A DNA stretch of 23,243 nt. Origin: a virus. The notes below the pieces were generated by a model. The model saw only the letters and a program-made list of their open reading frames with translations. It was not told where the DNA came from and ran no database searches. Positions 6,237 to 19,042 of this stretch are shown here, piece by piece. The translations under genes and the position numbers were made by a program. Each line of letters starts with the position of its first letter. Within the stretch, counting starts at the first letter, position 1. The stretch is taken from IMG/VR virus record IMGVR_UViG_3300048064_000279, positions 1 to 23,243 of that record, one strand, 5' to 3'.

Positions 6237-7826
6237 TTACTTTTGAACCATTCTAACTGCTTGTGCTGCTTGAGCTGTATCTGCTACGTCTTGCGATAAA
6301 GCCTCACGCTCTGCCATTTGTTGTTGCATTTGCTCACGCTGTTGTCTTACCTGATTAACTTCGCGCTGTGACTTTAACGTAGTCTTAGGAACGCCAAGCG
6401 CCTCAGTGATATGCCTTACTAAACCATCTGGGTCTATATGGTCCCCTACAGGTAATGCTTGCGATAATGGCATCAATACCTCAAGCGCTTTCAAGGTATT
6501 ATTAAGACTGCTAGATTTTTGCGCTCTTGCTAGTGGTGATACATATTCTATGTCCACATCTTGCCCCTGTAGTATTTCAGGAGCTGGAGCTAGTAAATTT
6601 TCTCTAATCATTAGCGCAAACACTCTGTCTATAAGTGGACGCAACATCTCATTCATCAACCTTCCAAGCACAGGGCCAATTACCCTCATTCGCTCTTCTT
6701 GTCTTTGAATAACCTCTGTTGCTGTCATATTAGGTGAGCCGCCAACAAGTAACTGGTCTACATAAAACGCAGAACGGATAGCCTGTCTTCTTTGGTCTTC
6801 CATAGAAAGGCCGATAGGTATGTTAGCGCCAGTATTTAGCGGTGTAATTGTGTCTCTTGAGCCAGCCCTATAGAAGTTTAGACCACCAGGTTGGGTTCTA
6901 ATAGGTAGTAAGAAACCGTCATCTGGCACTAGCAACGGTGGGTCAATCATTTTTTGCGCTGCCTGAATGATTGTCTTAGACATCAGATTCAGCATCTTAA
7001 CATCTGGTAGTGCAACCATTGCAGGGGAACGGCCCATAACCTCGCCTGTAGCCTTCAAGAAACGTGGCACAACGTATGGTAGCTCCTCAAAACCACCTTC
7101 TGCCATAACCATTTTACTCTTCATGCAAATGTAAACAGACATGAAAGGCATGTTCTTGTTGTCTACTTTACGTATATCGCGCTCTATCCTTGGTGTAACG
7201 CAATGTAGTATTTCTACAAAGTCATCAGGATTTTTCTTATATACCCTTTGGATATGCTCACTAACATTATCAATGCCAAATCTTTGTATAGCTGACACTG
7301 CTGTAATTTCATATTTTCTAAAAACGGTATTAACTATCCCATACTGGTCTTCTTGTACATAAAACTCAGAGATGTGTCTTGTGCTACAACGTAGCTGACC
7401 TTTGTCCATCTCAACAAACATACATCCAGTACCAAAGACAACTAAGTCTACGTACATCTCATGTACTTCTGTCTCAAAGTTAGACTGGTTAAAGGCTCTC
7501 ATCATACGCATACTGGTGTCTTGTAACCATTCGCGCACATCATCGTCACGGTTTAGCTCTGTGTCTTTAACATCTAGGTGAAACCAAGGAGAAGCCCCAC
7601 TTGTAAGCATGCCGTGTAGAGATGCTGATAAAAGGTCTACAGCTTGTAGCGCTGTGCCATCATAGATTTGCTCCATGCGCTTTTCACCGCGAGAGCGCTT
7701 CTTAACAATGTCTGCCTTTCTTGGCAGCATGTAATCGCCTAGCTCTTGATAATGCGTATCCCAATTATCTCTTTGCGTTTGAATACTCTCAAAACGCTTT
7801 ACGAGACCTTTAACATAGTCTTCCAT
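6237..7826 (-). CDS. Portal protein (head-tail connector)
   Basis: A 529-residue protein of the T7-type head-tail connector family (T7 gp8 has 536 residues). Clear family traits: the N-terminal RDNWDTHYQELGDYMLPRK (about 19-37), YDGTALQAVDLLSASLHGML (55-74), SPWFHL shortly after, a central crown and wing part, the TATEVIQRQEERMRVIGPVL helix region (about 370-390), and a Gln-rich C-terminal tail. The dodecamer sits at one vertex of the capsid, is the channel for DNA and binds terminase during packaging. It follows the large terminase and the polyproline gene, as in other podoviruses. Confidence 0.92.
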   Translation of the reverse strand: MEDYVKGLVKRFESIQTQRDNWDTHYQELGDYMLPRKADIVKKRSRGEKRMEQIYDGTALQAVDLLSASLHGMLTSGASPWFHLDVKDTELNRDDDVREWLQDTSMRMMRAFNQSNFETEVHEMYVDLVVFGTGCMFVEMDKGQLRCSTRHISEFYVQEDQYGIVNTVFRKYEITAVSAIQRFGIDNVSEHIQRVYKKNPDDFVEILHCVTPRIERDIRKVDNKNMPFMSVYICMKSKMVMAEGGFEELPYVVPRFLKATGEVMGRSPAMVALPDVKMLNLMSKTIIQAAQKMIDPPLLVPDDGFLLPIRTQPGGLNFYRAGSRDTITPLNTGANIPIGLSMEDQRRQAIRSAFYVDQLLVGGSPNMTATEVIQRQEERMRVIGPVLGRLMNEMLRPLIDRVFALMIRENLLAPAPEILQGQDVDIEYVSPLARAQKSSSLNNTLKALEVLMPLSQALPVGDHIDPDGLVRHITEALGVPKTTLKSQREVNQVRQQREQMQQQMAEREALSQDVADTAQAAQAVRMVQK

Positions 7827-13541: not shown

Positions 13542-13934
13542 CTATAAACATTCTCTTACCAACATAAACCAAGTAGATAGAGAAATGGTAGCGGTGTTGT
13601 CCTTGCCTGCATAGTCAGGACTGATAGAGGACAGCAACACAACACATCTGATAGGCTGTCTGTCATACTTATAGATTAGGACAGGCTGATTATGTGCAGC
13701 ATTGGAAGCCTTGGTTGCCTGTTCCCACCATTCAGGTCTATAACCGCCATTAGAGCCACGTGTAGAGGCGTAACGCTTACACTCAATAGTCCAACCATCT
13801 AAGCCTATTAAATCACCCCTATCAGCCTTCCTATACTGCTCTAGGTCACGTTCAACTTTAATGCCGAGATGCTCATCGATTAGCTTTGCAACTTCTCTTT
13901 CAAAGGCCGCGCCTTTAGCTCTTCCGTTCGTCAT
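13542..13934 (-). CDS. PD-(D/E)XK Holliday-junction-resolvase-like nuclease
   Basis: A 130-residue protein with the full pattern of the fold: AAFEREVAKLIDEHLG (residues 9-24, conserved Glu in helix one), RGDLIGLDGWTIECKR (39-54, with the Asp and the E-C-K metal-binding triad), then WWEQATKASNAAHNQPVLIYKYDRQP. This is the layout of small phage Holliday-junction resolvases and related nucleases. It could resolve branched DNA in recombination or before packaging. It is coded against the surrounding plus-strand genes, last in a leftward operon with a Cro-like regulator. The start overlaps the preceding frame by 20 bases. Confidence 0.72.
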   Translation of the reverse strand: MTNGRAKGAAFEREVAKLIDEHLGIKVERDLEQYRKADRGDLIGLDGWTIECKRYASTRGSNGGYRPEWWEQATKASNAAHNQPVLIYKYDRQPIRCVVLLSSISPDYAGKDNTATISLSTWFMLVRECL

Positions 13935-17539: not shown

Positions 17540-17636
17540 ATATGAAGAGAAAAAAAGAGGCGGCTATGTAGCTAGGTGGGTAGGCATATCCAACAAATAT
17601 AAGAACGAAGCAAGAAAAAAACAGGCTGGTGTGTAA
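17475..17636 (+). CDS. Small basic helical protein
   Basis: I choose the ATG at 17475, which is six bases after AAGAGGG; the frame is open from 17439 but that part lies within the preceding gene and looks out of frame. The 53-residue product is a charged helix (SAEEFKKQLEQLNETVINFH) and a basic tail (KNEARKKQAGV). The stop TAA overlaps the next ATG (TAATG). Function is unknown. Confidence 0.5.
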   Translation: MSAEEFKKQLEQLNETVINFHKYEEKKRGGYVARWVGISNKYKNEARKKQAGV

Positions 17637-17869
17637 TGGTAGTGAGAAACGGTATCCCTATCATGTTTAAGGATACGTCTACTATGAACCATGCAATGAA
17701 GACAACTCAGTACGGTGACTTGTATGAAACAGATGACGTTAAACAGTACAGGTATCTGTGTAAGCGTCTAGCGTTTGCTAAGTTCTACTATGTAAAGAAA
17801 AGATTCTCAGACGGTAAACATTACAAAATAAGAGTGTTGCCCGAAAATGTATTTACGATGAAGTTATAA
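17636..17869 (+). CDS. Hypothetical protein at the left edge of the modification cassette
   Basis: A 77-residue basic protein with many aromatic residues (YLCKRLAFAKFYYVKKRF in the middle). The last seven residues, NVFTMKL, are coded by the left copy of the 16-base direct repeat. A second copy beyond the cassette could encode NVFTMRLTT, so this 3' end appears to have been split or duplicated. The start overlaps the stop of the preceding gene. I do not recognise the family. Confidence 0.6.
   Translation: MVVRNGIPIMFKDTSTMNHAMKTTQYGDLYETDDVKQYRYLCKRLAFAKFYYVKKRFSDGKHYKIRVLPENVFTMKL
17846..17861 (+). repeat. Left direct repeat of the cassette
   Basis: AATGTATTTACGATGA, identical to 19027-19042. 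It codes residues 71-75 of the upstream protein (NVFTM) and is followed by AAGTTATAA (K, L, stop). The base triplet before it is GAA, the right copy has GAC. Confidence 0.85.
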
Positions 17870-17880
17870 AGGAAAACAAA

Positions 17881-18339
17881 ATGAAATACAGTATATATTA
17901 TTTAGCAGCCATTGTTATTGCTAATATTGGTTTTACATACATCCCTATGATTCCTTTGCCTGGTGGGGAAATGTTTGCCCCAATGTCACTACTGGTAGGT
18001 TTTGTTTTTGTTTTAAGAGATTTAGCTCAAAGACAAATAGGGGACAAAGTTATCTTAGCAATGGTTATTGGAATAGCCTTAAGTTACATTTTAGCAAATC
18101 CATTTGTTGCTTATGCTAGTGCAGTTGCTTTTGCTATAAGTGAATTTACAGATTGGTTTATCTACAACATAACAAAAAGGCCCCTTAAAGACAGAATACT
18201 ATTATCTTCAGCAGTAAGTACTCCAATGGATTCGGCAGTATTTATGTTAATGCTTGGATTTTTTAGTTGGTATGGGTTTGCTATTATGGTTGCAAGCAAA
18301 ATGCTTGGAGCGTTTATAGTTTGGTATAAACTTAAATGA
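17881..18339 (+). CDS. VUT-family (YhhQ-like) queuosine-precursor transporter
   Basis: A 152-residue integral membrane protein with about five or six hydrophobic segments (near 3-22, 33-50, 57-73, 75-95 and 112-148). It has the motif set of the VUT/YhhQ family: FVLRDLAQRQIGD (about 43-55), the Ser-Glu-Phe-Thr-Asp of AFAISEFTDWFIYNI (83-97), and STPMDSAVFMLMLGF (114-128). Members import 7-deazaguanine precursors such as preQ0 or preQ1 (E. coli YhhQ); phage copies are shorter than the E. coli protein (about 220 residues). An AAAGGA site precedes the ATG. The stop overlaps the start of the DpdA-like gene (ATGA), tying import to DNA modification. Confidence 0.75.
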   Translation: MKYSIYYLAAIVIANIGFTYIPMIPLPGGEMFAPMSLLVGFVFVLRDLAQRQIGDKVILAMVIGIALSYILANPFVAYASAVAFAISEFTDWFIYNITKRPLKDRILLSSAVSTPMDSAVFMLMLGFFSWYGFAIMVASKMLGAFIVWYKLK

Positions 18340-19025
18340 TTCATTACCATGGCACACCATTAACGCCAAGGGCAGAGTTATACAAGATGGCTGGAAAGCA
18401 TTTCTGTGTCAGCTTTGCCAATCCATCAGATGCGGCTGTTTGTTTGCAAATTGGGCAATCAGTCATGTGGGATAATGGAGCTTTCACAACATTTACTAAA
18501 GGTAAAAAATTCGATTACAACAAATTTTATGCTTGGCTAGAAGACAAACTCGGACATCCGCACTGGGCGGTGATACCTGATGTAATTGATGGTAATGAAG
18601 AGCAGCAAAAAAAGTTATTAACCACTTTCCCTTTTAATAAAGAATTAGCCGCACCTGTTTGGCATATGGGACTAAGTTTAAATTACTTAGAATTTTTATG
18701 TGATAATTATTCAAAGGTTTGTTTTGGCTCTTCTGGTCAGTATTGGGATGTAGGAAGCTCGATATGGAAAAGTAGATGCGATAAAGCATTTAATAGATTA
18801 TCTAAAAATAATTACATCCCTTGGGTTCATATGCTTCGAGGGTTAGCGCAGGCTGGAAAACATTATCCCTTCGCTTCGGCAGATAGTGTAAATGTTGCGC
18901 GCAATTTTAAAGACAAACCACAATGCCCTGAACTAATGGCGAGAAAAATAGACTCAGTCCAATGCCCTGTTCGTTGGGAAAAACAAGTTGAACAAACCGA
19001 AATGTTTTCTACTTATTCTTTTTGA
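18336..19025 (+). CDS. DpdA-like DNA guanine transglycosylase (TGT superfamily)
   Basis: A 229-residue protein with a TIM-barrel pattern like phage DpdA and tRNA-guanine transglycosylases: HFCVSFANP (22-30), MWDNGAFT (44-51, acid of the active site), AVIPDVIDGN (78-87), PVWHMGLSLNYL (107-118), VCFGSSGQY (128-136), and WVHMLRG with PFASADSVNVARN (178-190), which resembles the H.LG and S.DS region. DpdA exchanges guanine in DNA for a 7-deazaguanine base and thereby protects phage DNA from restriction. It is shorter than the best studied DpdA proteins and I cannot confirm every catalytic residue. The ATG overlaps the transporter stop. The gene ends next to the right repeat. A tRNA-modifying role is less likely. 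Confidence 0.68.
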   Translation: MIHYHGTPLTPRAELYKMAGKHFCVSFANPSDAAVCLQIGQSVMWDNGAFTTFTKGKKFDYNKFYAWLEDKLGHPHWAVIPDVIDGNEEQQKKLLTTFPFNKELAAPVWHMGLSLNYLEFLCDNYSKVCFGSSGQYWDVGSSIWKSRCDKAFNRLSKNNYIPWVHMLRGLAQAGKHYPFASADSVNVARNFKDKPQCPELMARKIDSVQCPVRWEKQVEQTEMFSTYSF

Positions 19026-19026
19026 C

Positions 19027-19042
19027 AATGTATTTACGATGA
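19027..19042 (+). repeat. Right direct repeat of the cassette
   Basis: AATGTATTTACGATGA, one base after the DpdA-like stop. In the frame that matches the left copy it reads D-N-V-F-T-M-R-L-T-T and then TAG at 19054-19056. The similarity at protein level (ENVFTMKL against DNVFTMRL) reaches beyond the identical bases, so it looks like the end of a related gene. Confidence 0.85.

Follow-up and report, generated by a model that had tools for sequence, protein, structure and literature searches.

Phages that carry a DpdA transglycosylase and no genes for preQ0 synthesis have been described before. Virion DNA of Salmonella phage 7-11 contains dADG in the absence of phage synthesis genes (PMC6884629), and in MED16, which has no synthesis genes either, dADG was found at about 0.13% of G (PMC8306585). 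MED16 DNA is still cut by most of the enzymes tested and the inhibition was judged minimal by the authors (PMC8306585). Mycobacterium phage Orion, another DpdA-only phage, shows no modification (PMC6884629). Hutinet et al. (2019) assigned the DpdA-only phages to group 3 and suggested uptake as one possible source of the base; YhhQ homologs were present in their survey, without correlation with any group (PMC6884629). For Vid5 a putative preQ0/preQ1 transporter was reported in 2018, as the first in a phage; it is located in a synthesis cluster, and salvage was proposed (PMC6266253). In bacteria, YhhQ of E. coli is an experimentally tested preQ0 transporter known for its role in salvage of tRNA queuosine (Q) precursors (PMC5372724), and members of the QPTR family vary in substrate (PMC11130926). 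Publications already cover YhhQ-like genes of phages, phages with DpdA only and the idea of salvage. This report deals with the vut-dpdA pair as a stand-alone unit, with its exchange for queD-queE-queC and with a QueF-L-like companion, all three of which appear to be undescribed in the literature searched.

A two-gene insertion at the 3' end of an open reading frame

The window, which is the whole stretch of DNA analysed, corresponds to a linear record of a virus with a length of 23,243 bases. It is a fragment, which probably covers roughly two thirds of a genome with a size near 35 kb, and gene absences given below refer to this fragment and not to the whole genome. The portal protein (6237-7826, minus strand) is closest to those of HTVC010P-type Pelagibacter phages, with 55-57% identity, which makes a marine alphaproteobacterial host plausible. 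A putative PDDEXK endonuclease is located at 13542-13934 on the minus strand (PF24608, E=1.2e-14).

The first-pass annotation had described two open reading frames joined by an ATGA overlap, and this arrangement was confirmed at the coordinates listed in Table 1. Upstream of the dpdA start codon no Shine-Dalgarno sequence is apparent by inspection, which is consistent with translational coupling to vut. Both genes are under purifying selection, as judged from comparison with the closest relative, L006 (Ka 0.095 and Ks 1.12 for vut, Ka 0.087 and Ks 1.13 for dpdA).

Table 1. Features of the vut-dpdA insertion and its flanks in the window.
Feature	Position	Strand	Description
vut	17881..18339	+	152-aa VUT/YhhQ (COG1738-like) membrane protein; ECF S-component-like fold predicted
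dpdA-like	18336..19025	+	229-aa compact protein assigned to the TGT/DpdA family
Stop/start overlap of vut and dpdA	18336..18339	+	ATGA, read from the sequence
Shine-Dalgarno-like motif	17869..17873	+	AAGGA, 7 nt 5' of the vut ATG
Flanking direct repeat, left copy	17843..17861	+	16 nt AATGTATTTACGATGA exact at 17846-17861; 19 nt at 95%
Flanking direct repeat, right copy	19024..19042	+	16 nt exact at 19027-19042
77-aa open reading frame	17636..17869	+	3' end serves as insertion site; protein end from joined flanks ..PENVFTMRLTT*

The pair forms a 1.18-kb insertion between direct repeats, for which 0.02 matches are expected in shuffled sequence, and lies within the 3' end of the 77-aa open reading frame. 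The protein end obtained by joining the flanks is also found in two sibling phages, L257 and L258, in which the corresponding sites (L257:1100-1339 and L258:889-1128) are empty and contain one copy of the repeat with neither gene between the flanks. These siblings are 91-92% identical to the window in the left flank and 93-94% in the right flank. The relative L006, in turn, holds the pair at a different genome position, and nucleotide homology to the window is confined there to 17871-18994. Taken together, the empty sites and the placement in L006 show that gain or loss at this position involved the two genes alone, as one unit. The pair is a mobile two-gene moron at the 3' end of a gene, which may have been inserted by recombination at short homology.

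Sequence and fold of the transporter and the transglycosylase

With general profiles the transporter of the window gives borderline scores. The match to Pfam Vut_1 (E=1.2e-5, 26.1 bits) lies below the cut-off of 27.2, and the score for TIGR00697 of NCBIfam (19.1) is far under its cut-off of 50.95. The match to phrog_4899 has an E-value of 1.5e-32, and the homologs of N3_2, Pam5, X2_30 and AB3P2 exceed the Pfam Vut_1 cut-off. A profile built from 87 phage VUTs matched E. coli YhhQ with E=1.3e-6 and 22.2 bits, a score above those of all 200 shuffled sequences, which reached at most 5.8 bits (best E 0.15). Alignment of the phage VUTs with E. coli YhhQ by hhalign gave E=9.9e-6 over 107 columns. 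The AlphaFold model of the window protein (pLDDT 84) consists of long helices and resembles ECF S-components, the best of which superimposes with Z 9.8 over 142 residues at 3.9 Å. Five of the helices are long, as compared with the approximately six transmembrane segments typical of the family; the first long one comprises 19 residues and the second 36. Profile comparison thus bears out the VUT/YhhQ-type identity proposed in the first-pass annotation and places the protein as a divergent member of the YhhQ family.

The neighbouring 229-residue protein matches phrog_887, annotated as queuine tRNA-ribosyltransferase, with E=1.5e-43. A tblastn search with this protein retrieved 104 phage records, and identities range from 28 to 48% among the matches listed. 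DpdA of Salmonella phage 7-11 is 34% identical to it, and DpdA of Pantoea phage MED16 (gp38) 35% identical, with E=1e-38; among relatives with measured DNA, MED16 is the nearest. Moreover, the profile of its relatives also matches the longer DpdAs of phages 9g, Seurat and 83AMN. In a four-sequence profile search the E-values were 4.8e-11 for 9g DpdA and 1.7e-12 for Seurat DpdA, and at a database size of 200,000 a profile search gave 4e-8 for the latter. Asp46, His165 and Asp183 of the window protein align with Asp72, His196 and Asp215 of 9g DpdA, Asp46 in the context DNGAF (DSGAF in 9g) and Asp183 in the context ADSVN (CDSSS in 9g), and all three residues are invariant across 36 relatives.

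Similarity to bacterial and archaeal TGTs is weak at the level of sequence. The single sequence has no match to Pfam TGT (PF01702) at E<=1, E. coli TGT scores E=0.26 against the profile of the DpdA relatives, and alignment of these relatives with the single E. coli TGT sequence by hhalign was not significant. The PDB was searched with the single sequence and with a profile of close relatives, in both cases with no matches, and the zinc motif CxCxxC of TGTs is absent from the 229 residues. The predicted structure (pLDDT 75, lower at the C-terminus) is a TIM barrel, and TGTs are among its top matches, with Z 12.5 over 207 residues for arcTGT (1j2b) and Z 12.1 for T. maritima TGT. However, these Z scores, calculated with VIA-align, are tied with those of pyruvate kinase and PdxJ, two unrelated TIM barrels, and the fold alone is therefore not accepted as proof. 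Among viral models, queuine tRNA-ribosyltransferases make up most of those significant matches that have a functional name. The first-pass assignment of a DpdA-like transglycosylase is borne out by phrog_887, by homology to the DpdAs of MED16, 7-11, 9g and Seurat and by the three aligned residues, all of which point to a compact member of the TGT/DpdA family homologous to phage DpdA.

Gene neighbourhood of dpdA and replacement of vut by synthesis genes

Collections of viral and of bacterial sequences were searched for DpdA loci with DpdA queries, and named phages were added; loci found solely via the transporter were excluded from the co-occurrence count. In 78 of the 93 loci with distinct DpdA, vut adjoins dpdA, on the same strand throughout. 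The other loci contain que genes instead (5), neither (6) or are cut off (4). When the DpdAs are grouped at 80% identity, no gene adjoins dpdA more often than vut, which occurs in 37 of 46 groups; the next real neighbours are a gene of about 80 codons (20 of 46 groups) and one found in 11 groups. An antisense family of open reading frames, occurring in 35 groups as shadows of the coding strand, was left out of this ranking. The transporter gene precedes dpdA in some clades and follows it in others; in a divergent DpdA clade, retrieved with the AB3P2 query, it lies downstream in 60 of 80 loci, near-copies included. Relatives of the window VUT were found in just 88 of 50,697 phage records. SMF-like open reading frames of about 85 aa (phrog_9572) occur near DpdA in Pam5 and X2_30.

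The absence of folE, queD, queE and queC noted earlier holds for the 23-kb fragment, in which Pfam models detected no QueC, QueD or FolE and a profile scan no QueE. QueC, QueD and FolE are also absent from the complete phages RHph_N3_2, Pam5, RHph_X2_30 and AB3P2, all of which carry the pair. In another phage, L020, queD-queE-queC are located 5' of dpdA with an ATGA-type overlap as in the window. Here QueD was identified with Pfam (E=3e-18), QueC by a Pfam match in the same contig and QueE by profile. The DpdA of L020 groups with those of L021 and L032, both of which have vut plus the 80-codon gene, and the DpdAs of L020 and L032 fall into a common clade (97*). These two genomes are collinear, with 84.8% nucleotide identity over the 6.3 kb preceding the segment (up to L020:8328), and the alignment resumes at dpdA (L020:10001) with 88.8% identity. 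The sole differing segments are L020:8329-10000, encoding queD-queE-queC, and L032:9279-10000, encoding vut and the 80-codon gene. This replacement of vut by queD-queE-queC at one and the same place argues more strongly than any other result for supply by VUT of the base which those genes make. In combination with the co-occurrence and with the two-gene insertion and its empty sites, it lends support to the minimal two-gene unit that the first-pass annotation had put forward.

Further operon variants include queD-dpdA-queE (L034 and L035) and queD-queE-dpdA (L163, L164 and L166). Five contigs (L144-L148, of which L148 is the contig of L080) display vut-queC-dpdA and have neither queD nor queE; here the two explanations are CDG as the cargo of the importer and a limiting amount of host QueC. 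A QueD-like gene adjoins compact dpdA in Caulobacter phage DMCA (L056:6705-7001) and in a Bradyrhizobium locus (L065:8627-9052), with no queC or vut found nearby.

The 80-codon gene lies between vut and dpdA or adjoins dpdA alone (L019:9768-10004, L010:9765-10004, L032 and many further loci). Its product belongs to phrog_37496, listed in PHROG as of unknown function, and has the invariant residues Cys12, Pro13, Tyr21, Glu34, Glu49 and His69. Searched against 177,635 PDB sequences, the family profile gave a single significant chain, the archaeosine synthase QueF-L (5jyx, E=1.3e-5), with Cys12 aligned on Cys21 of QueF-L. QueF-L acts on preQ0, with which Cys21 forms a thioimide (PMC5485725). The match and the position of the cysteine imply a nitrile substrate, that is preQ0, in those relatives, and the family probably represents a third module, which would convert preQ0 to G+. 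Comparison with the single sequences of E. coli QueF and the Dp-1 T-fold protein was not convincing, and a relationship to QueD was rejected, as QueD gave no score. The gene is absent from the window, where the product would accordingly be expected to end at dPreQ0 or, via the host, at dADG.

Among named bacterial genomes, those with the DpdA family belong mostly to Alphaproteobacteria. QueC is present in 9 of 10 bacterial genomes carrying the family and TGT in all. The idea that the host lacks the pathway is thus unsupported, and import would more likely boost the supply of the base than fill in for a missing pathway. In four bacterial genomes (G015, G018, G019 and G023) the distance between a VUT gene and a queC is no more than a few hundred bases, for example at G018:C2:1146482-1147703; G018 also has a weak match to TGT close by (1149323-1149673).

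Proposed function and relation to known systems

The pair probably represents a cassette of two genes that serves DNA modification by salvage, with import of preQ0 or a close precursor and its insertion into phage DNA by base exchange. VUT would increase the amount of a free 7-deazaguanine base that the cell takes up, with preQ0 or the compound directly preceding it as the most likely cargo. In a second step the coupled compact DpdA would put the imported base in the place of guanine in DNA, presumably in that of the phage, giving dPreQ0 or, after hydrolysis by the host, dADG, and protection from restriction would be the benefit to the phage. The cassette would thereby fill the role played by queD-queE-queC in sister phages, and it moves between genomes as a unit. 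Mere chance neighbourhood of two unlinked genes in a moron-rich region would agree with the location of both within a mobile insertion, but can hardly be reconciled with the co-occurrence, since VUT, despite its rarity among phage records, adjoins DpdA in most loci and in both gene orders and is exchanged for synthesis genes.

Other functional links were weighed against DNA modification by salvaged preQ0. The pair might feed the tRNA queuosine pathway, with import of a Q precursor, alteration of host tRNA and tuning of translation by the phage. The TGT superfamily acts on tRNA, tRNA Q salvage is the known role of YhhQ (PMC5372724), and TGT folds align with the model over about 207 residues. 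Such a function is nevertheless improbable. The window protein is devoid of CxCxxC and falls short of E. coli TGT in length by about 150 residues; by sequence it is related to phage DpdAs, among them those of two phages whose DNA contains dADG; and bacterial genomes with the family already possess TGT. There is a similarly small chance that VUT carries another member of the pathway, for example CDG (with QueC finishing the synthesis in the vut-queC-dpdA operons), preQ1 or queuine. The five vut-queC-dpdA contigs and the differing substrates of QPTR members (PMC11130926) would fit this, whereas the window contains no QueC that could use CDG, transport of CDG is not known for the VUT/YhhQ family, and a nitrile, preQ0, is implied by the QueF-L-like protein that accompanies the pair in about half of the relatives. 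A deazaguanine might also be conjugated to protein, as by Cap10 of type IV CBASS. Protein deazaguanylation is published (PMC11996544), the operon vut-queC-dpdA resembles a QueC/TGT pair, and the Cap10 structure 9ntn belongs to the top-scoring folds (Z 12.4, 210 residues at 3.9 Å). However, this match is tied with TGTs and unrelated barrels, neither protein matches PADLOC models and in relatives the partner genes are queD-queE-queC, which supply a free base; conjugation to protein is very unlikely.

The source of the base in DpdA-only phages has been a puzzle, and here a coupled transporter replaces synthesis genes in otherwise similar phages. The swap offers a natural comparison, and import could be tested by knockout of a single transporter. 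If the pair acts in salvage of preQ0 for DNA, salvage of nutrients would be extended to phage DNA modification, phrog_4899 and phrog_37496 would gain a probable function, and it could be predicted which phages carry dPreQ0, dADG or dG+. A broader and tentative view is that phage DNA modification can be outsourced to a mobile cassette interchangeable with de novo genes, so that the epigenome would depend on a base from the surroundings of the host, and modification, together with any protection, would vary with what neighbouring cells release. Those variants that include QueC, where CDG may be imported, or the QueF-L-like protein (dG+) would then form a modular family around one DpdA.

Comparison with known systems reveals E. 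coli YhhQ (COG1738/QPTR), which functions in Q-precursor salvage, as a member of the same transporter family by profile. It comprises 221 residues as compared with 152 in the window VUT, and bacterial YhhQ salvage serves a tRNA-type transglycosylase, whereas the window VUT is paired with a DNA-type enzyme. In Streptococcus phage Dp-1, queT lies directly 5' of tgt, the same order of transporter and transglycosylase as in the window; however, QueT belongs to a transporter family other than VUT and Dp-1 also has folE, queC, queD and queE. Vid5 and the Seurat/CAjan-type phages (Queuovirinae) resemble the window in having a VUT/YhhQ homolog in a cluster for 7-deazaguanine modification of DNA, but differ from it by a full or near-full synthesis pathway and a longer DpdA of 306-317 aa. 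The DpdA-only phages 7-11 and MED16 share with the window a compact DpdA of the same family and the lack of preQ0 synthesis genes. While no transporter is annotated adjoining MED16 dpdA, a YhhQ-type transporter is translationally coupled to DpdA in the window.
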